DNA of 38,913 bases. It comes from a virus. The notes below the pieces were generated by a model. The model had not been told where the DNA came from. It searched no databases and saw nothing but the letters and a program-made list of their open reading frames with translations. The position numbers and the translations under genes are program-made. This document shows positions 7,628 through 37,317 of this stretch, one piece after another (the first letter of the stretch is position 1; each line of letters opens with the position of its first letter). The DNA lies in IMG/VR virus record IMGVR_UViG_3300044655_000403, positions 1 to 38,913 of that record. One strand, 5' to 3'.

Positions 7628-7637
7628 CAATGTTAGG
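7623..7637 (+). repeat. Palindrome copy containing both a stop and a start codon
   Basis: GCTAACAATGTTAGG, one mismatch from consensus. TAA at 7625-7627 ends the mini-sigma gene and ATG at 7630-7632, at the centre of the palindrome, starts the VWA gene. As RNA the start codon would overlap the triloop and stem, so hairpin formation could affect initiation. Confidence 0.9.
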
Positions 7638-8865
7638 TGATATTCAAGTAGTCAAAGACAAAGAAGAACGCAGATTGAGCAAAGTTAAGATTTCAATTAT
7701 GCGTAATCCTAAGTTCGCATTATGGTCAGGCTTGATGACTGTCGGTAAAACAAGCATAGATGACAACATCCCAACCGCATGCACTAATGGTAGAGATGAA
7801 CGCTATGGTCGTGAGTTCGTTAAGACTCTAGATGATAAAGAGTTGGCATTCGTAGTGTTGCACGAAACATTGCACAAGGCTTATCGTCATCTCTTTACAT
7901 GGCGCAGGCTAAATGATGAGAACCCTCATCTTGCAAATCTAGCGTGTGACTATGTAATCAACCTTCAGCTAAAGGATATGGACAAGGATGAATTACTAAT
8001 CGCCATGCCTCAGCGTAATGGTAAGGCGATAGGTGCAGTCGATGAACGATTCCGTGGCATGAACGCTAAGCAAGTATTCGACATACTCAAGGATGAGGAG
8101 GAAGAAGGCGGTGGTGGCGGTGGTGAAGGTGGAGAAGGTGGTAAAGGTGGTGGTGAAGGCTTTGATGACCACGATTGGGAAGGTGCGAAAGCATTGAGTG
8201 AAGAAGGCAAGAAAGAGCTAGAGCGTGACATAGATCAGGCTATCAGGCAAGGTGTAATTGCTCAGCAGAAACTTGCAGGGGCAGGGGGCGGTGGATTGTC
8301 TCGAGAGTTGCAAGAGTTGCTTGAACCCAAGGTGGATTGGAGAGAGTTGCTCAAGGAGTTTGTTCGCTCTACATGTAATGCGAAAGACACAAGTTCGTGG
8401 CGCAGGGTTAATCGTAGATACCTAGGTCAGGATATCTATATGCCTACGCTAATAGGTGAGCGTGTAGGGCATCTTGTGATTGGCATTGATACGAGTGGCT
8501 CAGTAGGTGGTAAGGAATTGGCAGAGTTCTTATCTGAGGTGCAAGGCATTGCTAAAGATGTTCACCCTGATAAGGTCGATCTTATCTATTGGGATGGTGA
8601 AGTTGCAGGGCATGAGGAGTATGACTCTTCCCAAGTGGATAACATTGTTAGCTCGACCCAACCCAAGGGGGGTGGTGGTACTGACCCTACTTGCGTAATG
8701 CGTTACTTGAAAGAGAAGGTGATTAAGCCCGAGGCAATCATCATGCTAACCGATGGATATGTAGGGGAGTGGGGAAATGATTGGGATGCACCGATTCTAT
8801 GGACTATCGTGGGAGGTAATAAATCTGTTGCCTCTGTGGGTAAAACAATACATGTTAAGGACTAA
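7630..8865 (+). CDS. VWA-domain metallopeptidase-like protein (DUF2201-type), MoxR partner
   Basis: The 411-aa protein has an N-terminal domain with HETLH (residues 78-82, an HExxH zinc site) and a further His at 87. An acidic Gly-rich linker follows (about 155-178). The C-terminal von Willebrand A domain has the MIDAS motif DTSGS (287-291), a Thr at 351 and an Asp at 375 (LTDG). This layout matches the DUF2201_N plus VWA-like proteins that pair with MoxR AAA+ ATPases. It lies directly after the AAA+ and mini-sigma genes. The start codon sits inside a palindrome copy with no classical RBS apart from AAAGAAAGG about 4-12 nt upstream. A weak palindrome copy (8638-8652) lies within the gene. Confidence 0.88.
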   Translation: MLGDIQVVKDKEERRLSKVKISIMRNPKFALWSGLMTVGKTSIDDNIPTACTNGRDERYGREFVKTLDDKELAFVVLHETLHKAYRHLFTWRRLNDENPHLANLACDYVINLQLKDMDKDELLIAMPQRNGKAIGAVDERFRGMNAKQVFDILKDEEEEGGGGGGEGGEGGKGGGEGFDDHDWEGAKALSEEGKKELERDIDQAIRQGVIAQQKLAGAGGGGLSRELQELLEPKVDWRELLKEFVRSTCNAKDTSSWRRVNRRYLGQDIYMPTLIGERVGHLVIGIDTSGSVGGKELAEFLSEVQGIAKDVHPDKVDLIYWDGEVAGHEEYDSSQVDNIVSSTQPKGGGGTDPTCVMRYLKEKVIKPEAIIMLTDGYVGEWGNDWDAPILWTIVGGNKSVASVGKTIHVKD

Positions 8866-23503: not shown

Positions 23504-23529
23504 ACCCCGCCTAGTGCGGGGTCTTTTTT
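23504..23529 (+). terminator. Terminator between the convergent arms
   Basis: ACCCCGC (23504-23510), loop CTAGT, GCGGGGT (23516-23522), then C and six Ts (23524-23529). It serves the + strand. On the minus strand the hairpin is followed by TTCAAAAGG, not a U run, so it should be one-directional. The stop codon of the minus-strand gene lies in its T run. Confidence 0.88.
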
Positions 23530-26500
23530 AATCTGCGGAACGAGTGCCTTCAACCAACGGATAGATAAACGGAGCTTGCTTATCAGATACAGATAAGCCT
23601 TGAGACGATTTGCCACGACGCTCTTCACGGGACTGTAAAGACTTACTAATTGTTTCACCGTCAATAGGTAGCATAGCGTTCTTAGTATTAAATTTTTCTA
23701 TATCATCTAATATGGAATCAATCTTATCGTCGTCTTCATTACGCACGGCTATATCTAAGCGGTTAAGTAACGTAGCTGTTTGCTTTTCTATTTTTGCAAC
23801 TACTTGCTTTGCCATAAAATTAGATTTTTGTAGTTGTGCTACTTGAGTATTTCCAAACCCTAGAGCTTGCGCAGCTAATTTGCCTGTCGTATAAAACTCA
23901 GCCGCCTTGATCTCATCGCCTTTGGTAGTAGTAGCACCTTCTTGACTTAACCTATATGAAGCCAAACCACCTCTAAGCCATGCTGGGGCAAGCTTTTCAA
24001 AACCTCTATTTATCTGCCCATTATTAAAGTCATCAAAAGCACCTGCTATGTTTGCACCTACGCTACCTATAGGGCCAGTAAAACCAAACACAAAGTTTTG
24101 GAAAGCCTCACGAGAAGTATCCCCAGGGGTGTCATTTCTAAACCACAAACCATCTAACGAAGTAGACGCACCAAGATTTAAATCTGTATACGCAGACAAT
24201 GGACCCATCTCAACACTACGAGCTAATGTTTTAGCATCCTCTTCACTTAGTCCTAAAACACTAGCTAAGTTGCTATCGGGGCCAAAATAACTAGGAATAA
24301 ACCAGTTTCTAAACCATACATCTAGATTACGCTTACCAAGTGGGTTTCCTTCGTCATCTTCATCGTAGTCTTCGTCATCCTCATCACGCATTAATTCACG
24401 CACACCTTCTGCTACACCCATGATAAAACTATATAAAGGGAATCCTGTAACACCAGCAAATAAACCAGTCATACCTAAAGTACCAAAGAACTTAATTGCT
24501 GCTTCTTTCTTTTCATCTTTGTTTAAGAACGGCAGCATACCATAAAAGTTACGTACTAAATACGATGTCATCTGTAGTGGGTAGGTTAAAAATTGTGTGC
24601 CTAACCTAGCTAATGGACTACCTTTCATCAACCTAGGCTTGTTGTACTGTGTGTAGTTAAACAAAGCATCGTACGTTAGGGCTAAGGCTCTTTCAGTAGC
24701 GGCATCAAAAGCAGCTTTATCATCCATGCCCTTTTGCTTGTAATCAGCGTAGGCTAATTCAAAAGATGACATAAACATAATCTCACGAGAGATACGCTCA
24801 GCGTGGTGGAATGCACCACCCATAAAATTAAACACACCTCTAGTCGCTTTGCTAACTACATTGTGATATTTAGCAGTAGGAACTGCAGACATTGCAGTCA
24901 TATCTCCTGCATAGGTAGACATAAATATATCTTTGTCATTAGCAAAATTCCAAGCGTCTTTTAGCGTTTTTCTATACGCTGGGTCTTTATGCTCAGTAAC
25001 ATACTTAGAGTCACCAATAGAAGGCTGCCCCCAGTTAGTAGTTACGTTCCCATTGTCATCTGTTTTAGTTGTGCTAAATTTATTCCACAAAGCACTATAC
25101 CTAAGAGCAGTTGCACCTGCTTTTGCTACACCAAACTCTGCTGCTAAGGTAGGTAAACCAACAATAGGTAACTGCGTCATCTGTATTAACGCAGATTTAG
25201 GAGAGGTTAGCAACCAATAGAATACAAACTTGTTACCCGCCGCTGCAACTTGATTCCAGTCTATGCCGTCATCAGGGATGCTAGGTGTAATTTCTTCAAG
25301 CGCCCTAGCGCTAATTTCTCTAACTAATACCGCTAATTTTAGTTTGTCTGGGTTCTGTGCTATTTCCGCATATGCAGCTGCTATGCCATTACGAATCTTA
25401 TCTGCATAGCTTAAACGGGCTAATTGATTAGCAGCTGTATGTTGGCTAGTAATAAAGTTGCGGATTACATCGGCACTAAAACCAGTCTTGCCTTGACGGT
25501 GTACAAACTTACGACGTATGTCTTTATCAGGTAAGGTCATTAAATACATCTGATAAATGTTGTCCTTAACAGCCTCTATATCCGACATTTTATTGCTATC
25601 AAGCATTGCAAAGATTTCTTTAAGCATGTCGCTAGACTCAACATGCTTCTCTCTTAGTTTGCGTATGTCATCGCCAACGTCTATATCCCCATCTTCAATC
25701 ATTTTAGCTAAGCTACGATTGGTACCACCAGCTTTATTAAGTTCAGCAACACGGGCTTCAACAGCAGCATTTCGGGCGGTAGCGCTTTCAAACATATAGA
25801 ACTCACCACTCTTGCCCTTACCTTTACTAAACCAGAAGTTACCGTAACGCATTAACGGGAAATAAATATCTAACAGTCGGGCTTCTTGGAAGGTCTTAGT
25901 AATAGCCGCAATCAATTTACCTTTTGGAGTAGACGCATCATTAATATCTCCAGGTACGTTAGAAGATGCAATCTTTTCTTTTAATAATTTTTCATGCAAG
26001 TCAAACGTTTCTTTGTAGCTATCTCTAGCCATTTTGTATATAGTATGCCCTTCGCCATTTCCAAACTTACCTAAAGCATCCCAGCCAAGCATAGTAAATT
26101 TTTCACCTGTAATAGGGTTATTTAAAACCCCACCTTCGTATACTAGTTTTATAGCTGCGGTGCGTTCAGTTCTTTGCTTTTTAAGGTTAGGTAGCGTCTT
26201 AGGATCTGTAGACGGGTTAAGAATATCGTTTTCTATTTGTTTTAATTTTGGATCATTTTTTATAGCGGTTGCTGCATCAGGATGTTTAGCAGGGTCAACT
26301 TGTAACAAAGTAGCTGCATTTATTACATCAGCTAGTGCGTTGCCACCTTTTTTATATTTTTGGTTAAAGTTAATCCAAGCAGGGGTTTTTTCAGAAAGTT
26401 CACGAATCATGCGGGTGCGCATACCAGCCATGTCGTTTACAGCGGAATTAATAACTTTTAGGTTGGTAAGCTTATCCCCTGCTATGCGGGTAATATCCCC

Positions 26501-29500
26501 TGTATCAAAAGCGCGCATTACAAACCTTAACTTGGCTACGCTTATAGTGCTATACACAGCCTTCATTAGTCGAATAGCATCACTAGCATTTCTAGTTTGC
26601 ATCATTAACTGACCGATTGAAGTATTCATGTCAGTACTACTATGAGATAACCTAAGTTTTCTAAGTGTGGTTTCTACCATCTTTAACTGTTTAGGCGCTT
26701 TTGGTTGCTTAGCCTTAGCTTGTGACGGCTCACTCGTTGCAACCGCTGCTTCTGCAAGCTGTACGTCTAACAACTTATTAGTAATAATAATTAAATCTTG
26801 TAAGGCAGACTTATGGTTCTCGCCCATGTTAAACATTTGACGCAAGCTCTGTACAAACTTATTAAACAGTTTGCTAATAAACCCAGGTGCCTCACCAGCA
26901 TACTCGCCAGGAGCTAGTAAAAGAAAGTCTTGCATTGCGGGTAAAGACAAACCATAAGATACAAATTCTTTAATATCAGTAAATGCCTCATCAGGGATGT
27001 TTAACATCTCAGGAGTAAGTTGACCTAAATCTTCTAGCAAAAGAGCATCAGATTTAAGCTGGTCATATAGCTGTTTGGCTTCTGCCATGGTCTCCATAAG
27101 CTCAACAACAGGAACTCGTAAGGAAGCAGGAATAGGCTTGCCATCTTGTTTTAATTGCAGGTAGGTGTCGATACGAGCAACAGTTGCAGCATGCAAAGCT
27201 TCGTGTAACACAACAGTATTGTTAATACCGCCTTCACGCATTACATAGATAGTCTTTCTATCGGGAACATATAAACCTGCTGCCCCTTCCATTTTTCTTT
27301 GTAGGAATGAGGTTGGCATATCCGCAGCATTATCTACTATGACAAACTTAACACCATTAAGGAACGGTGCAAGACGCTTAGCTAAAGCTTGTTCAAATGC
27401 GTTGCCGTTTTTGGCTATAAAGTTAACTGCACCTTTAGCAAAATTAAATTGTTCAAATGCCGTGTTATCCTGTCCATTAGTAGATTCGCTAATTTCGGAA
27501 CGGCTAGGTGCGCCTATTTTTTTCTTAGAGTCGTATATTTGTTTAGCAGTTTCAAGTTCTTTGGGGTCAGCTGTTTCTAATAATGTACTAGCTCTTTTAC
27601 CCGCAGTCTTATTTTTTTGGTCAGGGTCAATAGATAGACGATATGCCGTCTCAAGTGCGCCTATACGCTGCAATTTTAATTGGGATAACTGAGATATTGC
27701 GTCTTGTTCGTTAGCAGCATTATTAATAATTTGCTCTGTATTTACCTCTTGGGTTAAAACTTTTTCTGCCCTATTAATGTCATTACTAGCGTTACGACCA
27801 ATATCTTGACGTTGTTTTTTATACGCAGCATCAGCGGCTATTTGCTCTGGAGTTTTTGTAACAATTGGTCTACCACGAGATTTACCTTTAGTACCTGTAG
27901 TATCTGTAGTACCTGTAGTTATTTCTTCTTCAGTTACTGTTGTATCTTGAGGTGGTTGTTGTTTTTCATACGCATTAATTATGGCGTCATCTAAAGCACG
28001 GGTTTCCCCTGTTGCTGTTTCCTTTAAATAATCTTTTTTAGTAAGTCCTAGTTGAGCTGCTTTGGCTTCTATTAAACGTCTAGACGCCATTGTGGCATTT
28101 CGTTTGTTAGCTGGGCTAGGATATATGCTAGTTGCTTCTTCTGCTGCAATTGATTTAGCGTATAAATCAACTAAATTTTGAGGTACGGTAATTGCTGGAG
28201 GAACACTTGCGCCAACACCAGCAGCTTGTTGCTGGGCGGCAATTTGTTTTTGACGTAGGCTTTCTTTAGCATTTGCTAATGCTTGTTCATCTGTTAACTG
28301 GGGATACTTAGCTTTTAGGTTTGCAGCTAGTGTATTGAGTTCAGCTCCTTCTCCGCCTCCAACAGCATCAGTAGTCGTGCCAGTTGCTGCCAAGTCTCCT
28401 TGGGTAGTGTCCGTAGTTCTTGTGTCGGTTCCGCTTGTTCCGCTAGGCACAGAAACGCCTGATTGATCTGTTCCACCGATAATTGATTCAAGTCCATCTA
28501 GTCCACCCTCCTGCAGTATGGCATCCCCAGCAATAGCAAAAGCTTCTTCTTCAGTATAAAGGCGCCCGCCTGATCCATCTTTTTTTACTGTTTTAGGATT
28601 TTGTGTATTTTTTAATCTTTCAACTTCATTGTTAAATTGTGCACCTAAAGCCTCCATAGCTCCAGGTTTGTTAAGCATTTCAAGAGTTTTCTTTTGGTTT
28701 TCAATTGCTTTAGCTTCTTCTTCTCTTTTTGCAATGGTAGACGGTAAACGTTCATAGGCTTGTTGCCCACCAAATGCTCCTGTCTCTAATAAGCTACTTG
28801 GACCTTCACCAGCGGCTTCTAAAAGTGCTCGACCAGGTTTTTTAACTTCACCTTCAGTAGCAAGCTGTGCAAGTATTTCACCACCAGCACCACTAACCAT
28901 TTGCGCAACAGGTTGAGCTACTCCAATATTGACAGCTTCTTTTGCAAATTGATTTTTTATTACTCCTTTAGGTACAAGCATTTTGCTAGCTAATCCAGCA
29001 GCAGCTGTATCTGCAACAGCAATAATAGAACCCCGTGCTAAGGCATGTTCATACGCTTTAGCAAATAGTGTAGGATCGTTTAATGCTTTGTTAACCGCTA
29101 TAGGGTCTCCAGTATTGATTCCGTTATCTTGGAAGTACTCCATAACCCCAGAGGACAACTCACTAGCAAAGCTAGTACTACCCATAGCCAACGCACCCAC
29201 AGTAGGGTTACGTGTTATAGCACCTAGTACAAGAGCAGGAGCAACCTGTGGCAAGCTTTCTAAAGATACACTAGCCATAACACCTAAAGGATCAGCTTGA
29301 AATGCTTGAAATGCCTGTCGTGCAGTTGTTACATCATTTAATAGTTCAACGGCTGGTCTTTTTTTAATTTTACTAATTTCTGTTTGAACGCCCATTACTT
29401 TCTTTTGTGCTTCTGCTTGTCGTGCCTGCAATGATTTAATTGCGGCTTCAGCTTCTTCTGGTTGAAGAGGGGTCATCTCCCCAGTTAGGGGATCCCGTGG

Positions 29501-29908
29501 ACCGACCTTGCCTTCTCGTATTGCATTAATTTCTTTTTGAAGACTAGTAATTTCTAAGTTTGGAACAAGAGTTGATAAACCTTTAACTCCTGCTTTTATT
29601 GGATCAGTCTGCCTCTGTAGAAAAGGCACTTCTGCTTCGTATTTTGCAGTTGCTTCTGCTAGTTGTTTCTTTTGTTGCGCAGTTAAACCTGCACCTGGCT
29701 GCGCTGCAAAAGCCCCTTTAGGGGTTTCCATTTGTGAAGTTACTTCTTCAGGACTGCTTATGGGCGCAACTTCTGTTGTTGGTGCCGCTATAGGAGCGGC
29801 TTTAGGCGCCTCTTGTTTACCAAGATATGTCAATATTTTATTTTTTGCTACTGTTGGGTCTGCATCAGCAATATCATATTGCTGACCCTTATATTCGTAA
29901 ATAGGCAT
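23528..29908 (-). CDS. Giant ejection/internal virion protein with HExxH metallopeptidase-like motif
   Basis: This 2,126-aa protein begins MPIYEYKGQQYDIADADPTV. The N-terminal half is Ala/Gln/Thr-rich, with disordered segments near 470-560 and 660-720. A VVLHEALHAATVARI segment with HExxH at about 902-906 suggests a zinc metallopeptidase of the type found in large phage polyvalent proteins. The C-terminal third has LFNYTQYNKPRLMKGSPLAR, then a hydrophobic stretch near 1,800-1,830 and an acidic DEDDEDYDEDDEG run. This layout fits podovirus internal proteins that are ejected and cross the envelope; the C-terminal region resembles LPD38-like domains. It is the last gene of the right arm. AAGG at 11 nt from ATG is a modest RBS. 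Confidence 0.82.
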   Translation of the reverse strand: MPIYEYKGQQYDIADADPTVAKNKILTYLGKQEAPKAAPIAAPTTEVAPISSPEEVTSQMETPKGAFAAQPGAGLTAQQKKQLAEATAKYEAEVPFLQRQTDPIKAGVKGLSTLVPNLEITSLQKEINAIREGKVGPRDPLTGEMTPLQPEEAEAAIKSLQARQAEAQKKVMGVQTEISKIKKRPAVELLNDVTTARQAFQAFQADPLGVMASVSLESLPQVAPALVLGAITRNPTVGALAMGSTSFASELSSGVMEYFQDNGINTGDPIAVNKALNDPTLFAKAYEHALARGSIIAVADTAAAGLASKMLVPKGVIKNQFAKEAVNIGVAQPVAQMVSGAGGEILAQLATEGEVKKPGRALLEAAGEGPSSLLETGAFGGQQAYERLPSTIAKREEEAKAIENQKKTLEMLNKPGAMEALGAQFNNEVERLKNTQNPKTVKKDGSGGRLYTEEEAFAIAGDAILQEGGLDGLESIIGGTDQSGVSVPSGTSGTDTRTTDTTQGDLAATGTTTDAVGGGEGAELNTLAANLKAKYPQLTDEQALANAKESLRQKQIAAQQQAAGVGASVPPAITVPQNLVDLYAKSIAAEEATSIYPSPANKRNATMASRRLIEAKAAQLGLTKKDYLKETATGETRALDDAIINAYEKQQPPQDTTVTEEEITTGTTDTTGTKGKSRGRPIVTKTPEQIAADAAYKKQRQDIGRNASNDINRAEKVLTQEVNTEQIINNAANEQDAISQLSQLKLQRIGALETAYRLSIDPDQKNKTAGKRASTLLETADPKELETAKQIYDSKKKIGAPSRSEISESTNGQDNTAFEQFNFAKGAVNFIAKNGNAFEQALAKRLAPFLNGVKFVIVDNAADMPTSFLQRKMEGAAGLYVPDRKTIYVMREGGINNTVVLHEALHAATVARIDTYLQLKQDGKPIPASLRVPVVELMETMAEAKQLYDQLKSDALLLEDLGQLTPEMLNIPDEAFTDIKEFVSYGLSLPAMQDFLLLAPGEYAGEAPGFISKLFNKFVQSLRQMFNMGENHKSALQDLIIITNKLLDVQLAEAAVATSEPSQAKAKQPKAPKQLKMVETTLRKLRLSHSSTDMNTSIGQLMMQTRNASDAIRLMKAVYSTISVAKLRFVMRAFDTGDITRIAGDKLTNLKVINSAVNDMAGMRTRMIRELSEKTPAWINFNQKYKKGGNALADVINAATLLQVDPAKHPDAATAIKNDPKLKQIENDILNPSTDPKTLPNLKKQRTERTAAIKLVYEGGVLNNPITGEKFTMLGWDALGKFGNGEGHTIYKMARDSYKETFDLHEKLLKEKIASSNVPGDINDASTPKGKLIAAITKTFQEARLLDIYFPLMRYGNFWFSKGKGKSGEFYMFESATARNAAVEARVAELNKAGGTNRSLAKMIEDGDIDVGDDIRKLREKHVESSDMLKEIFAMLDSNKMSDIEAVKDNIYQMYLMTLPDKDIRRKFVHRQGKTGFSADVIRNFITSQHTAANQLARLSYADKIRNGIAAAYAEIAQNPDKLKLAVLVREISARALEEITPSIPDDGIDWNQVAAAGNKFVFYWLLTSPKSALIQMTQLPIVGLPTLAAEFGVAKAGATALRYSALWNKFSTTKTDDNGNVTTNWGQPSIGDSKYVTEHKDPAYRKTLKDAWNFANDKDIFMSTYAGDMTAMSAVPTAKYHNVVSKATRGVFNFMGGAFHHAERISREIMFMSSFELAYADYKQKGMDDKAAFDAATERALALTYDALFNYTQYNKPRLMKGSPLARLGTQFLTYPLQMTSYLVRNFYGMLPFLNKDEKKEAAIKFFGTLGMTGLFAGVTGFPLYSFIMGVAEGVRELMRDEDDEDYDEDDEGNPLGKRNLDVWFRNWFIPSYFGPDSNLASVLGLSEEDAKTLARSVEMGPLSAYTDLNLGASTSLDGLWFRNDTPGDTSREAFQNFVFGFTGPIGSVGANIAGAFDDFNNGQINRGFEKLAPAWLRGGLASYRLSQEGATTTKGDEIKAAEFYTTGKLAAQALGFGNTQVAQLQKSNFMAKQVVAKIEKQTATLLNRLDIAVRNEDDDKIDSILDDIEKFNTKNAMLPIDGETISKSLQSREERRGKSSQGLSVSDKQAPFIYPLVEGTRSAD

Positions 29909-29919
29909 TTTATAAAGCC

Positions 29920-32328
29920 TTAATCTAACTTAATTACTTTTGGCTTGTTACTACCTCCGCTTCCACCAGATTGATTTCTAGACAGTATTTTATCTCTTAC
30001 CTCCCCACTAATTCTTGCATCTTCTGCTTTTTTCTCTGCAGGAGTTAATTTATCCCAATCAGCCTCTGCTTTACGCGCTTTCATTCTGGCTTTATATTCT
30101 TTGTACCCAGGAGTGTTAACTGTAGCAATTTCTTTATTAGCATCATCTCTAGTAAGATTTTGTCCAGTAATATTTACTTGTTGCGCTGCAACACCTGCAC
30201 GTGCCATTTGTGCTTTCTGTAATTTATCTAAGTAGTCGTTCCTACCTTCAAAAAGAACAATTTCATCAGGTCTTTTATCACCCTTAGCTCTTGCATCTGC
30301 TAAATAACCCTTAGCGTGATTATCTGCTCTATCCGCTACAGAAGCTCTTGTACTTGCAATAGATTCTTTAGTTTCGCGTTCTTTAGCTTTATCAAACATA
30401 GCATTGCCACCAGTAATATCACCTAGCTTCATTAGGCGTTCACCTTCAGCAACTTCAGCAAGACCTTTAGCAACTTCACCACGACGCCCTCTAAGTCCTT
30501 CTTCACGGGCTATTATATTTGGCAATGTTGCCCTACCTGTTTTACCAGCTGCTTGCGTTAAAGGGCCTGTTTGAGTGGCTAAATTAAAGCCAATGTCCAT
30601 CAAGTTATACCCTTTATTTTTGCTCTCAGCATCTGCTAGGGCAGCTTGTTCTTTTGTGTAAAACTCACCTAATGCAGCCTTGGGCGCACCAACACCAGCA
30701 GCCTCACGTTGTTTTCTAGCAAAGTTCTCGTATTGCTGACGTTCTAAAAATTGTTGTTGTAAGCGAGCCGCCGCTTCTTCATCTAAGTCTACTTCACCCT
30801 CATTAGCAAAAGCCACAATACCACCACTAGCGGCATTTAGCATATCCATAGACCCAGCAGGTGCGGCAGGTAAACCAGCTCGTTCAGTAACAGGGGTGGG
30901 TAGACCACGTTGATCTTGAGCAATAGACTGTTGCGCTTGTGTTTCAGCTTGCTCTCTAATCTTTTGCTCTTGTAATATTTGTATTGCCATAGCACGAATT
31001 TCTTCGCTAGGACTGCTTTGCGCAACACGATTTAACTCGTCAGCATTCATCATCATTAATTTTTGACGGATACCACGAACTACTCCGCTATCAGGATTAG
31101 CCTGAACCATTCCTCTATTAGCATAGCCTGCAACGCCACCAGAAGCTAAATCTTTGATAGTTCCTCCCTCTGCAAACAAACCAGCTTGCTTAGCGCCAGC
31201 AGCACCAGCTAAAAGACCAAGACCTTGCGTAATGGGAGCGGGTGCTGCTTGATACGTTTGTGTAGTAGTTGCTTGCATTGGTAGACCACGCAACATATTG
31301 GACATCATGCCTAATTGCAGGAGTGGGTACTGTTGTTGTGTTGCATAGTCTTGGGTAGCCTGATTAATCTTAGCTTGCTCCATTGCTTGTTGTTGCCCAC
31401 CCATTTGATTTTGCAAACCAATAATGCCTTGTTGTGCTTGTAATTGAGCACCGCCTAATTGACCTATTTGCCCAGCACCCTGCATAGTTTGACCTAAACC
31501 TTGTAAACCAACACCAAGACCTCCGTAACCAGCTTGTAATCCTTGAAGTCCTAAATTAGCACCAAACTGTTGAGACTGTAGCGCTCTATCGTAAGCAGAC
31601 TGAGAGCCTTGAGCTTGGATATTAGATAAGTTAGAAAGTAAATTACGCTCACGCTCACCTTGCATCAAAGCCTGACGTGCACCGCCATAAGTACCTTGCC
31701 GAGACGCTCCTAAATTTTGAGCATTTTGTGCCATCTGCGCTTCACGTACAGCAGCTGCTTTGGCAACATCAGTAACGCTTTGTTGATATGGCGACATGTA
31801 TGCTTGCATGGTTCCAGGACTTGTTACATTTTGTGCGTATTGTTGACCTGCACCAAAACCTTGTTGAGCGGCTGCTGCTCCTTGACCTGCTAACCCCATA
31901 GAACCCATAGCGCCTAAACCAGTTAGTCCAATAGCTTGTTGATATTCACCAGGTGTTTGTAACGCAGCAGTAGCTTGTTGAGCCTGCCGCTGCATCGGAC
32001 TAAACGGCGCAAAATAATTACTTACATCCGTGCTATAGGGTCGATATGGTTTAAATCCAGTAATATTAAAACCACCTTCTGCAGTTGGAGCGCCTTCAAA
32101 CAACTGCCTCTGAGTTGCTTCCAACATGTTAGTAACATATGGTTTTGCATATTCAGGAATATTAGTCTGATACGCAGTACTCTGTTGGGGTGGAGGAGTG
32201 CCACCACCACCACCGCCTTTGCCACCGCCACCACAAATGTATCCACCACCAAGCTTGCGCTGAGTGACGCTATCGCCTAGGGGTTCGCCAAAGGCTTCTA
32301 ATTCTCTACGAGACCAATTCTGTTTCAT
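29920..32328 (-). CDS. Gly/Ala/Gln-rich internal virion protein, 802 aa
   Basis: It begins MKQNWSRRELEAFGEPLGDS and then a poly-Gly run (GGGYICGGGGKGGGGGGT). Residues about 100-380 are low-complexity, Gly/Ala/Gln-rich, with repeated LGLQGLQAGYGGLG-type units. The C-terminal part is charged and helical (LQQQFLERQQYENFARKQRE). The short N-terminal leader ending in poly-Gly is seen in other phage virion proteins and may be a targeting segment; that is recalled, not tested. It is probably an internal core or ejection protein that works with the 2,126-aa and 568-aa proteins. The RBS is GGGAGCGGG. Its first 23 nt overlap the acetyltransferase gene. Confidence 0.78.
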   Translation of the reverse strand: MKQNWSRRELEAFGEPLGDSVTQRKLGGGYICGGGGKGGGGGGTPPPQQSTAYQTNIPEYAKPYVTNMLEATQRQLFEGAPTAEGGFNITGFKPYRPYSTDVSNYFAPFSPMQRQAQQATAALQTPGEYQQAIGLTGLGAMGSMGLAGQGAAAAQQGFGAGQQYAQNVTSPGTMQAYMSPYQQSVTDVAKAAAVREAQMAQNAQNLGASRQGTYGGARQALMQGERERNLLSNLSNIQAQGSQSAYDRALQSQQFGANLGLQGLQAGYGGLGVGLQGLGQTMQGAGQIGQLGGAQLQAQQGIIGLQNQMGGQQQAMEQAKINQATQDYATQQQYPLLQLGMMSNMLRGLPMQATTTQTYQAAPAPITQGLGLLAGAAGAKQAGLFAEGGTIKDLASGGVAGYANRGMVQANPDSGVVRGIRQKLMMMNADELNRVAQSSPSEEIRAMAIQILQEQKIREQAETQAQQSIAQDQRGLPTPVTERAGLPAAPAGSMDMLNAASGGIVAFANEGEVDLDEEAAARLQQQFLERQQYENFARKQREAAGVGAPKAALGEFYTKEQAALADAESKNKGYNLMDIGFNLATQTGPLTQAAGKTGRATLPNIIAREEGLRGRRGEVAKGLAEVAEGERLMKLGDITGGNAMFDKAKERETKESIASTRASVADRADNHAKGYLADARAKGDKRPDEIVLFEGRNDYLDKLQKAQMARAGVAAQQVNITGQNLTRDDANKEIATVNTPGYKEYKARMKARKAEADWDKLTPAEKKAEDARISGEVRDKILSRNQSGGSGGSNKPKVIKLD

Positions 32329-32758
32329 GTTTTACCCGCTCCCTAATCCAGCGACAGTCAGCTTTATTCATTTCAAAAACTACTAAATCCCCGCCATCAC
32401 AATGCATACCTGGGAAACGAATGGCTTCTTTAAATCCCAGTTTTTTGTCATACTCCATAGCCTTTGTATTTTGGCTATTTACAATTCCAAAAGTTTTCTC
32501 TAAACCTAAAAAGTTAAAAGGATAATCAAACGCACCAAACAATAAACCCTTAGGCGTATAACCACCTTTTAAATTAACCATGTGCATTTGGCAAGTCTTT
32601 CCTATAAATGCCGTATACCCAATAACCCACTCAATCTGATCGTTTTCATCTACCCAAAACAACGCTTGAAAATCTGCGCAAGGCTGAACTCCAGCATGCT
32701 CATATAAATAGTGTTGGGCAATCGCCTTAGCTTCATTTGACTGAGCACCCTTTAACAT
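32306..32758 (-). CDS. GNAT-family acetyltransferase-like virion-cluster protein
   Basis: The 150-aa protein has the pattern of a GNAT fold ending: IVNSQNTKAMEYDKKLGFKE, the usual N-x2-A-x3-Y-x-K-LGF signature. A central beta sheet (WVIGYTAFIG) precedes it. Such small acetyltransferases occur among podovirus internal-virion genes (compare T7 gp13 position). Whether it acetylates a substrate or is a structural variant is unknown. It is packed between two internal virion protein genes, adjacent to one and overlapping the next. Confidence 0.75.
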   Translation of the reverse strand: MLKGAQSNEAKAIAQHYLYEHAGVQPCADFQALFWVDENDQIEWVIGYTAFIGKTCQMHMVNLKGGYTPKGLLFGAFDYPFNFLGLEKTFGIVNSQNTKAMEYDKKLGFKEAIRFPGMHCDGGDLVVFEMNKADCRWIRERVKHETELVS

Positions 32759-34465: not shown

Positions 34466-34830
34466 ATAATAGTCACCGTTACCGTTCCTACGTTACCCGT
34501 TCCTGATACACCTTGAACATCAACTAAATTAGAGTTGGCTACTACTGTGACACTGCCAACTGACCCAGTTCCCGACACACCTTGTACATAGGCAAAGTTT
34601 AGCGAGACTATTTTTAAGAACTCGCCATCCCGAAAGACTGTGCCTTCTGGCAAATTGTACCCCGATGTTGGCAAATTTAATAGCCGTAACCCGTCTAGTT
34701 GCAAGGCAGCATTGGAGTCGCTTTGCGTAAAGTAAAGCCTTAATGCCCCAATTAACTGCGCCATGTGCTGTTGGTCGTATTCGACTGGAGCCAGAGGTAA
34801 AGCTGGCGCACGGAACCGTTGCATTCCCAT
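34462..34830 (-). CDS. Structural protein with a VQGVSGTG repeat, 122 aa
   Basis: The N-terminal 60 residues look folded (RFRAPALPLAPVEYDQQHMA). The C-terminal half has two copies of VQGVSGTG-x-VG-x-VTV (about residues 82-95 and 105-118), a short beta-repeat like those in fibre or Ig-like virion proteins. The start is coupled to the nozzle gene by TAATG and the stop to the next gene by ATGA, so it is part of the tail/ejection operon. A tail-associated structural role is likely; exact function unknown. Confidence 0.75.
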   Translation of the reverse strand: MGMQRFRAPALPLAPVEYDQQHMAQLIGALRLYFTQSDSNAALQLDGLRLLNLPTSGYNLPEGTVFRDGEFLKIVSLNFAYVQGVSGTGSVGSVTVVANSNLVDVQGVSGTGNVGTVTVTII

Positions 34831-36878
34831 TATCTACGCCCATCTGGTCTGCCATCCAATCTAGGACTACCTAACTGCCATTGAACATTTAAGTCAGAAG
34901 ATTGAATCTGAATAGCCATCTGTCTAGCCCTAGCCCGCATAAAGATCTGCTCGGTGTATATATCTACCGAGGTCTCGATTACTGTGCCTGTCTCGGTGTT
35001 GGAATATGCGTTGCCAGGAAAGTTCCGTGGTTTTATTAACATTGTGACCGCAGGCAAGGTGGCAGTCGATCCCGCAAAGTTAAGGTCAGGAATAATCCGC
35101 TTAGTCAGGATGAACTGATCCCCGTCTACAAGGTCAAAGTCTGATGAGGCAATAAAAGAGGTCATTGCCGTTGTGCCATCGTTTAAACCTTGCTCATGGT
35201 TATAGATAATGCTGTCGGCAGTCATTGTGGTCTGGACTACAAGCTGGGAGATATTGACGATATAAGTGCCTATCCCACCAGTTCCTGTGCCTAGGGCAGT
35301 AATCTTAGTGCCTGTAGCTACTCCAGTACCCGTAATGACTGAGCCTACTTGCAGGCTACCAGTAGATATTGCAGTCACATTGAGGGTTGTACTGTTATTC
35401 AGAGAGCCTGTAAAAGACGTTGTGGTAACTGCTTGAGGGTATTCCCTTAAAGACGAGTCTGACCACGCAGTGCGATCTATCGTTCCGTAGTACCAAATCT
35501 TCTCTAAGTGGTTATAAATCACATAGGCGTTATTAATTTGACTATTAGCCGTTGGGTAGAACCACCAAATTTCATTCCAGCCCTCGTTTGTTCCTGAGAT
35601 AATCTGGTCGGCTTGATTGTAGTTAAGGTTCTCAAATACGTGATTTCTTATGGTACATGGCAGAGTCTCTACCCGTCCGCCATAGGCATAGAACTTATCA
35701 TGCCCCATCCAATAAGCCGTGTTATTAACGGTAACGACCGCCCGTGGGCTAAGAATTGAAATGTTATCAGAAAGCTCTTGAAGACCGAATACGTCCGTAG
35801 TGCCTAGGAACTGTAAAGAATTAAGGGTTCCCTCTGTATATACAAGGATCTCCTGACGAGTTGCTACGGCACAGACTATGGCAGAACCACGGGATACTCG
35901 TAAGAATCCTGCTGAATTAGTAACTAGCGGAGTCCAGACATTAGGTTGATCTTGGGTGGCAAAACGGATTAATAAAGGATCAGATGTTCCTCCCCCAAAC
36001 GGTGTACAGCCAAAAGCCAATAAATGTTTATCGTTCTGGGAAACTAATACTTGCATTGCCTGAGTAGGGACATCAGCAGGAGCTACTCCGTCAATAGTTG
36101 TTGTGGCTAAAGGTGTAGCCCTAGTTCCAACACCGCTAGAATACTTCCAATAAAAAATGGTTCCATCACGGATATTAGCTACTAGGTCATCGTCAAAGTT
36201 TTGTAAGAACCAATCCCGTTGTGGTGCATAAACAGGCGTAGCTGATCCTAAACCCCAGCCAACCGTACTCCATGTACCTGAACCCCAGCCGTATCCAGCA
36301 ACACCGCCATCGTTACCTATATTGATTTGGAAGGCTGCGGTAATAGCAGAACCACCACCTGAAGTCGAGGATGAGGCTGCTGTGGCTGCTGTAATAGTAA
36401 AAGAGTTAGCGTCAACAAAAGCAATAATAAACTCAGTATTTAAGTTTGGCGCTGTAATTCCGCCTACCGCAACAGCACCAGAAAACGTGACATAAGAGCC
36501 ATCTGTAGCACCGTGACCTGAAATAGTTACCGTAACCGTTTTAGAGCCATTAACCGTGGTAAAGCAGTTATCGGTTGCTGGAGATACAAAAGTAGCCCGT
36601 ATTGGGGTAATGTCGTATAAAGTCTGCCCTGCTTCTATATATAGTTTTCTAGAAGTTCCAAGAGCTAGGTAGTTATCTGCAACCGTGGTAATCCAATTAA
36701 AGACTTGCCGACAGGTTCCCACCACAGTAAATAAACCATAACGAAGCCAGCCACCCATCTTCTGTGGGTATCCTGAGCGAAAGCGGATTTTGTCGCACTC
36801 AAAGAATCCACCTTCATTGGTGTAGTTAGTCTGATCTCTGTTTAAACCTGGTTTGAATTGTAGTTTCTGTAATGGCAC
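34830..36878 (-). CDS. Tail nozzle / DNA-stabilisation protein (P22 gp10-like)
   Basis: GTG at 36878 is chosen: AAGGG lies 7 nt upstream and the upstream gene ends just before. A TTG at 36920 is the longer alternative and has no clear RBS. The product is 682 aa, beginning [15 protein letters not shown]. Beta-rich repeats with many WYY/GG motifs ([40 protein letters not shown]) and a C-terminal [15 protein letters not shown] resemble the beta-propeller nozzle proteins of podoviruses. Its place near the ejection and lysis genes agrees. It would plug the tail after packaging. Confidence 0.72.
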
Positions 36879-36888
36879 GGGTTTACCC

Positions 36889-37317
36889 TTAGACGTATTG
36901 ACGTGTTCCTGATTTGTCAATGATAAGGGCTTGCCGCCTTGGTGTCATGTCTTTTGTGTTAGGCACTGAGATATGTGTCCAGCGGTCAAACTCACGGATA
37001 ATTTGGTCGTAGCCAATACCAGAGGCAATCACCGCTTTGACTACTTCATCTGGCGTCATGCCTGGTACTCTAATGTCGGCAGCACAACCTATGCGATGTT
37101 GTGAGGTGTTGCGACTTCCAACGGCATTGTTCACGGCTTCTGATCTAAAGGCGGAGTTAACCATAATTGGCTTACCACCCAACACAGTCTTTACCTGTTC
37201 TAAGAACTCTGCTAATCGGGTCAAATTTTCGGTTTCTTCTACATTTGGAGTGTTGTCAAACTCACGATGGTCGGTAATAGTTAGTTCTTCAAAGGTAAAG
37301 TGTTCACTTAGATTCAT
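36889..37317 (-). CDS. Endolysin, peptidase M15-type
   Basis: The 142-aa protein has [20 protein letters not shown], where S-x-H-x2-G-x-A-x-D ([11 protein letters not shown]) supplies zinc ligands His and Asp, and WTHIS supplies the third ligand. This is the peptidase_M15 (D,D-carboxypeptidase) endolysin pattern used to cut peptidoglycan crosslinks. No signal peptide is present, so a holin is required; the 3TM holin gene lies directly upstream and overlaps by 14 nt. The length is typical of single-domain M15 lysins. GAGG precedes the start. Confidence 0.92.

Follow-up and report, generated by a model that had tools for sequence, protein, structure and literature searches.

A 38,913-base virus contig (IMG/VR record IMGVR_UViG_3300044655_000403; this whole stretch is called the window below) raises the question of what a very large phage protein might do with a metallopeptidase-like site. 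Its giant gene lies on the minus strand, encodes a protein of 2,126 amino acids (aa) and, as claimed by an earlier reading that a model made from the letters and translations (the sequence-only reading), is the largest of the 105 listed open reading frames (ORFs). That reading took the product for an internal virion protein and pointed to VVLHEALHA, which is indeed found at residues 899-907, with an HExxH motif at 902-906. Its observation holds, and its interpretation is borne out in part. We consider, with a probability of roughly 55%, that the product belongs to the ejected core proteins of short-tailed-type phages, in the class of T7 gp16, the PhiM1 tetrameric ejection protein (TEP) and the N4 virion RNA polymerase (vRNAP), with a polyvalent build and an intact, probably latent zincin that would act after ejection. 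What the sequence shows in this picture is the domain itself, its HExxH and Glu, their conservation, a kinship with the zincins of N4 vRNAP and phiKMV-type gp37, and the PLxRFG tail.

The occurrence of an HExxH by chance is only moderately unlikely from the motif alone, as it appeared in 15 of 2,000 shuffles of the giant protein; we take the site as real because it is conserved in relatives. When viral contigs were scanned, the whole protein found 21 loci and a domain profile 78 (the best 80 of 149 relative-encoding stretches). The resulting 100 loci contain 925 ORFs with 98 domain hits; because the loci from the two scans overlap, identical stretches were removed, which left 70 distinct ones. 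H902, E903, H906 and E981 are retained in 69 of these; the 70th is a fragment that begins past the HExxH and retains the equivalent of Glu981, so that this residue is kept in 70/70. The loss of the site in homologues, a check set beforehand against the sequence-only reading, was therefore not observed. The scan patterns were free of HExxH, and one of them held EF[VI][AT]YG; thus only the conservation of HExxH is free of selection, that of the third ligand being partly built in. In an alignment of 13 family members (A1), the H, E, H and E are invariant, as is the Y-G behind the Glu, and HExxH with a downstream Glu is present in all 22 aligned representatives of our family and the phiKMV-type and N4-type families. 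Since three gp16-type proteins devoid of the motif (HHU8, Brevundimonas AA and Rhizobium TM38) lack the entire domain, it seems to be either present with its site or absent altogether. Judged from these sequences, HExxH and Glu981 mark a zincin-like metallopeptidase domain that would bind zinc and catalyse, and the metallopeptidase-like site of the sequence-only reading falls within it, together with a predicted third Glu ligand.

The same conservation bears on the idea that the domain serves as a structural zinc fold for packing or hub assembly and is non-proteolytic. According to PMC5512222, the Glu of HExxH in zincins is catalytic and not a zinc ligand. A purely structural site should let Glu903 drift, whereas this residue is retained in 69/69 covering stretches and 22/22 family representatives. 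A structural role would suit the N4 system, in which the region with the domain is described as needed for encapsidation and vRNAP as packaged uncut (PMC5512222), and in which, according to a preprint, the C1 domain touches the RNA polymerase and the C-terminal domain slows transcription (PMC12633501). We regard this alternative as quite unlikely.

An AlphaFold2 model of residues 796-1135 (pLDDT 73.6) contains a helix, three strands, the HExxH helix (model residues 102-126) and the Glu helix (184-193), an arrangement that corresponds to the zincin core as given in PMC5512222. When VIA was applied to chains ranked by Foldseek, the top match of the domain model was N4 vRNAP gp50 2124-2366 (Z 9.3, root-mean-square deviation (rmsd) 4.1, 197 aligned), followed by the protease domain of anthrax lethal factor at Z ~6; the next family stands at Z 6.1, well below N4. 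Residues 2124-2375 of the N4 protein are its C1 domain, which PMC12633501 describes with an HExxH. Profile comparisons with hhalign connect all three families, ours to N4 (98.1%, E 6.6e-14, 198 columns), ours to the phiKMV type (97.7%, E 2.2e-12) and the phiKMV type to N4 (97.9%, E 6.2e-13). The A1 profile matches one PDB chain, 9sfn_G 'Internal virion protein' (E 2.8e-11, in the profile search only and not in the whole-protein search), which is identical to LUZ19 gp37 over 1,337 residues. A 143-residue stretch of this chain matches 128 phage records, including N4-type RNA polymerases and the DarB-like protein of Serratia phage Parlo. LUZ19 gp37 in turn matches the PhiM1 'Tetrameric ejection protein (gp48)' 8vb2_A (E 1.2e-25), to which Kantovirus C171 gp03 is also related (E below the printed limit), and PhiM1 gp48 carries HEAAH at 385 and Glu449. 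The window protein thus belongs with families whose members are known as virion-packaged, ejected proteins (N4 vRNAP, the PhiM1 tetrameric ejection protein and the phiKMV-type internal virion protein). Because PhiM1 gp48 is located in the ejectosome within the capsid (PMC11440229), homologues of the domain do occur inside virions, and the same presumably applies to the phage of the window; homology and gene context thus favour the earlier guess of an internal virion protein, as a prediction for this phage. The phages bearing the domain infect Pseudomonas, Pectobacterium, Xanthomonas, Klebsiella and E. coli, with core residues alike. Other HExxH motifs were met in this comparison: HERLH at 559 in the T7 gp16 of locus L111 and HESFH at 1141 in T7-Ah had no zincin-profile score and were taken as chance. 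Two motifs are also present in the giant proteins of Parlo (L104; 1195 and 2557) and Xanthomonas phage Bolivar (L106; 923 and 1125), and in each only the first fits the zincin profile well.

The kinship with phiKMV-type proteins brings in a further explanation, that the cell wall or envelope is the target of the domain. This is what the labels 'internal virion protein with endolysin domain' and 'peptidoglycan lytic exotransglycosylase', borne by many of the matched phiKMV-type records, imply, and in PMC11440229 an endolysin/exotransglycosidase-like domain is assigned to PhiM1 TEP 268-528 from BLASTP and DALI. In a variant of this idea, the zincin may itself be a peptidoglycan endopeptidase. 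The 268-528 interval coincides with the position of the zincin, but in LUZ19 gp37, C171, PhiM1 gp48 and KP34 Pfam detects neither a lysozyme nor a transglycosylase domain, while T7 gp16, the positive control, gives SLT at E 1.7e-31. Moreover, the protein of Xanthomonas phage L13.2 carries SLT (14-126), a zincin (666-802) and the hub on one chain and, because both occur together there, zincin and SLT are different domains. As reported in PMC6115819, the lysozyme similarity of PhiM1-like phages lies in internal virion protein B, not C. We find an attack on the wall or envelope very improbable; the lytic label of phiKMV-type proteins seems to have been carried over by name, and in phiKMV-like phages the widespread annotation 'internal virion protein with endolysin domain' is probably a name for the wrong enzyme. 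The text of PMC11440229 has no mention of metallo, peptidase, protease or HEXXH, and in a literature search made mostly at listing level phiKMV-type gp37 was nowhere called a metallopeptidase.

Behind the zincin, the C-terminal half matches the PLxRFG model NF032893 at E 5.3e-103 (345.7 bits against a curated cut-off of 100; best stretch 1348-1845), and our own motif search found the PLxRFG-type segment in 49 of 70 distinct C-terminal stretches. The model of residues 1085-2126 is helical (pLDDT 77.7). Its top VIA match is T7 gp16 of the mature core (9jyy_I, 515-860; Z 7.2, rmsd 9.7, 235 aligned), the rows below aligning 45-87 residues; Foldseek against the PDB gave nothing at E <0.001 for this model. 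The C-terminal halves of the LUZ19 type match T7 gp16 by hhalign (99.1%, E 7.4e-19, 620 columns), and the three pairwise alignments among our family, the LUZ19 type and the T7 type keep the same register at 12 of 14 checked positions, with 2 off by one and scores of 33.6-44.0 against at most 22.6 for reversed controls. The kinship of the C-terminal half with the T7 gp16 hub thus appears weak but register-consistent. T7 gp16 differs in having an N-terminal SLT transglycosylase and no zincin domain; no SLT was found in the window protein at Pfam E up to 10, the T7 gp16 control being positive.

Compared with LUZ19 gp37 (9sfn_G) and PhiM1 gp48 (8vb2_A), the window protein shares a homologous zincin with HExxH and Glu, a helical C-terminal part and a PLxRFG-type segment, whereas those proteins are shorter (1,263-1,337 aa), lack the 800-residue N-terminal part and show a C-terminal kinship that is weakly detectable. 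N4 vRNAP gp50 (9pnr/9pnt) resembles it in the homologous C1 zincin, in the helical C-terminal part of about 1,100 residues behind it and in a hydrophobic N-terminal part; unlike it, the window protein has no single-subunit RNA polymerase domain (Pfam, E up to 10), and the C-terminal parts are not detectably related. The resemblance to PLxRFG and 'DarB-like antirestriction' (phrog_10089) proteins concerns the C-terminal ~780 residues: the phrog_10089 match spans residues 1336-2111 only (C-terminal 776), and the DNA methylase and SNF2 helicase of DarB-like proteins are not found at Pfam E up to 10. We therefore rejected this candidate, and the antirestriction name is not transferable. Finally, the polyvalent MPTase proteins of Iyer et al. 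2017, as described in PMC5512222, are likewise giant phage proteins near late genes, with a zincin core holding HExxH and a Glu helix and with an LPD domain, and relatives of the window protein carry ART-PolyVal. With respect to the disparate domains that define polyvalent proteins, the window protein holds the zincin, LPD39 and the PLxRFG tail, ART being present only in relatives such as that of locus L015; it differs in having a single recognised catalytic domain and a zincin that no Pfam model sees.

The relatives suggest that the parts around the zincin are exchangeable. The L015 protein (L015:5979-13220) is 85.5% identical to the window protein over the last 1,325 residues and has, between its N-terminal part and the zincin, an ART-PolyVal domain (E 3e-12) beside a repeated SRSE string, in the slot that the RNA polymerase occupies in N4. 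In 13 of 72 distinct proteins with zincin and tail, 693-974 residues lie between the two. One such insert, in L084, has a second HExxH in addition to ART-PolyVal and a GHKL-type ATPase (HATPase_c at E 2.4e-4, which does not reach the cut-off of Pfam), and among 17 long members ART-PolyVal matches 4 and HATPase_c 8; no second enzyme was recognised by Pfam in the window protein. As a side observation, these inserts combine the GHKL-type ATPase with a second metallopeptidase-like HExxHxxRxH(G) motif, and 'GHKL' and 'HSP90' are absent from the main text of PMC5512222. In L022 (9009 onwards), the N-terminal 300 residues are 28% identical and the domain 66%, and the N-terminal part seems exchangeable on this basis; the composition adjustment of BLAST hid most of this match (one 28% piece, 304 columns), which without adjustment reaches 68% over 2,208 columns.

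Such cargo also bears on the idea, one of the two options of the sequence-only reading, that the zincin acts on host proteins at entry. As an effector it might cut, for instance, a protein of host defence or of the envelope. ART-PolyVal, present in relatives, is a host-modifying type of domain, the structural neighbours of the zincin include secreted bacterial protease toxins (Z ~6), and a host effector is among the possibilities offered for polyvalent MPTases in PMC5512222. Against this, a domain with the same core residues across the phages of many hosts fits a phage-intrinsic substrate better, and none of the analyses made suggested a host target. We consider a host effector unlikely.

Under the favoured reading of an ejected core protein with its own protease, the chain would begin with a hydrophobic N-terminal part and continue with a long linker (the place of cargo in relatives), the zincin-like domain and the helical C-terminal hub. 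The C-terminal half would pack the protein above the portal, and the whole would be ejected with the DNA into the host. The zincin would stay latent in the capsid and become active once the chain has passed through the tail and folded again; by cutting ejected protein, either in its own linker or in a partner, it could then free the N-terminal membrane part or the cargo from the hub. Within this reading we give about even odds to cleavage of an ejected protein as the most likely step and, as a guess, place ejected proteins first and host proteins second as substrates. Two observations favour the processing of ejected proteins, a role that PMC5512222 proposes for polyvalent MPTases: phages of unrelated hosts retain the domain, and the parts on either side of it are exchangeable. 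Action after ejection is likelier than processing in the head because N4 vRNAP is described there as packaged unprocessed. By analogy with the N-terminal domain of N4 vRNAP (PMC12633501), the N-terminal hydrophobic region is possibly the membrane-inserting part.

Several points weigh against this explanation. A profile check of the domain, which the sequence-only reading had proposed, matched the N4 C1 and phiKMV-type gp37 families, but none of the 13 A1 members matched a Pfam zincin family below E 0.1, the nearest being Tox-MPTase4 in one member (E 0.12). PF18818, which we take to be the Pfam model of the polyvalent MPTase, was not among their Pfam matches. The confidence of the domain model is moderate, and Foldseek alone against the PDB returned nothing at E <0.001 for it. 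In the C-terminal half, a Z of 7.2 at rmsd 9.7 is too low to be safe for a helical protein, and hhalign matches this half weakly (E 0.0045 to the LUZ19 type and 0.014 to the T7 type, probability 3-25%). There is no detectable link to N4 C2 (hhalign of the C-terminal parts E 0.053; C2 absent from the VIA matches), which is evidence neither way. Moreover, the chains of 9sfn and 8vb2 are given as full-length, which lends no support to cleavage in the head, and both the cleavage of a substrate and the presence of the protein in the virion of this phage are predictions.

A broader proposal, which we put somewhat short of even odds, is that one zincin module serves as a shared ejectosome protease of short-tailed phages, occurring in N4-type RNA polymerases, phiKMV- and PhiM1-type core proteins, Parlo-type DarB proteins and giant PLxRFG proteins, exchangeable on T7-gp16-type hubs and working in the cell after threading through the tail. 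If this is true, the 'endolysin/exotransglycosylase' annotation of phiKMV-like core proteins is wrong in more than 100 phage records. The type of protein is already known, and the value lies in a domain unified across ejected proteins and in a probable misannotation. For phage core proteins with an obscure part in entry, it also provides an enzyme hypothesis precise enough to be tested, and it points to the solved virion structures 8vb2 and 9sfn and to the laboratory phages LUZ19, phiKMV and N4, which offer a point-mutation test of the HExxH Glu.

Table 1. Features of the giant gene and its surroundings, in window coordinates unless a locus is named.
Feature	Coordinates	Strand	Basis
2,126-aa giant protein, whole ORF	23528..29908	-	ATG start; ORF list and translation
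Helical C-terminal hub with PLxRFG tail (putative), residues 1085-2126	23531..26656	-	NF032893, model, T7 gp16 link
Acidic run DEDDEDYDEDDE, residues 1842-1853	24350..24385	-	Composition
Hydrophobic segment within hub, residues 1807-1834	24407..24490	-	Hydrophobicity; singled out by the sequence-only reading
PLxRFG-type segment SPLARLGTQFLTYPLQMTSYLVRNFYGM, residues 1764-1791	24536..24619	-	hhalign with register check; aligns to T7 gp16 and LUZ19 gp37
LPD39 match, residues 1138-1217	26258..26497	-	Pfam PF18858 E 2.1e-7, 31.2 bits against a cut-off of 27
Zincin-like metallopeptidase domain, residues ~815-1050	26759..27466	-	A1 alignment, model, VIA match to N4 C1, hhalign
Glu981, predicted third zinc ligand, in KEFVSYG	26966..26968	-	Invariant in A1; 70/70 distinct stretches
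HExxH = HEALH, residues 902-906	27191..27205	-	Translation, A1 alignment, conservation
Ala/Thr-rich linker of low hydrophobicity, residues 400-700	27809..28711	-	Composition only
Hydrophobic N-terminal region, residues 206-375	28784..29293	-	tblastn 35% identity; segments 210-232, 289-313
802-aa gene directly upstream, candidate partner ejection protein	29920..32328	-	Position; G001 counterpart
Acyl-CoA N-acyltransferase (GNAT-like) gene, same operon	32306..32758	-	phrog_4470 E 1.4e-22
Virion structural protein, same late gene run	34830..36920	-	phrog_3287 E 3e-58
Relatives with an insert of 693-974 residues between zincin and tail, 13 loci	L084 (4707-14516), L079, L083, L086, L088-L093, L096, L097, L100		

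The remaining traits described in the sequence-only reading are largely present. The acidic run was found, and the hydrophobic segment exists at 1807-1834, as one of four (210-232, 289-313, 1039-1057 and 1807-1834) and not a single one. Ala and Thr make up 30-31% of residues 501-700, which bears out the Ala/Thr-rich stretch, its disorder being suggested by composition. Residues 206-375 resemble hypothetical proteins of Xanthomonas phage CP2 and Pseudomonas phage AF (tblastn, 35% identity). The first 29 residues (MPIYEYKGQQYDI..., window 29822-29908, minus strand) are common to L022 though the next part diverges, and perhaps form a short anchor or packaging motif. A KSRGRP string at residues ~675-690 is AT-hook-like by eye, with GRP retained in L021, L022 and L078. 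A DNA-level search against phage records gave no match, and a scan of a bacterial genome collection gave 28 pattern matches and no relative, and hence pointed to no host. PDB sequence matches of the whole protein such as CcmP and orb2/ORF12 (E 0.23-0.72) were taken as chance, and the SdpC toxin family TIGR04032 stayed below its cut-off (21.2 bits against 99.2).

The giant gene ends a minus-strand run of late genes with a GTA_holin_3TM holin, an M15 endolysin, the phrog_3287 structural protein, the acyltransferase and the 802-aa protein; the family searches made picked out no portal, capsid or terminase gene in the window. In the relative G001, the gene in the place matching that of the 802-aa gene (L109:2281-4605) matches phrog_4287 'DNA ejection protein' (E 4.9e-5), and the window's own 802-aa protein has phrog_473 as its sole match (E 0.019). 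Serratia phage Parlo and Pseudomonas phage Skulduggery likewise have acyltransferase genes ahead of the giant one. Elsewhere in the window (7630-8865, plus strand), an unrelated second HExxH protein (VVLHETLHKAYRHLF) matches the DUF2201 putative metallopeptidase (E 5e-30) and a VWA-like domain (E 1.3e-16) in Pfam; the PHROGs label for its family is 'HNH endonuclease'.

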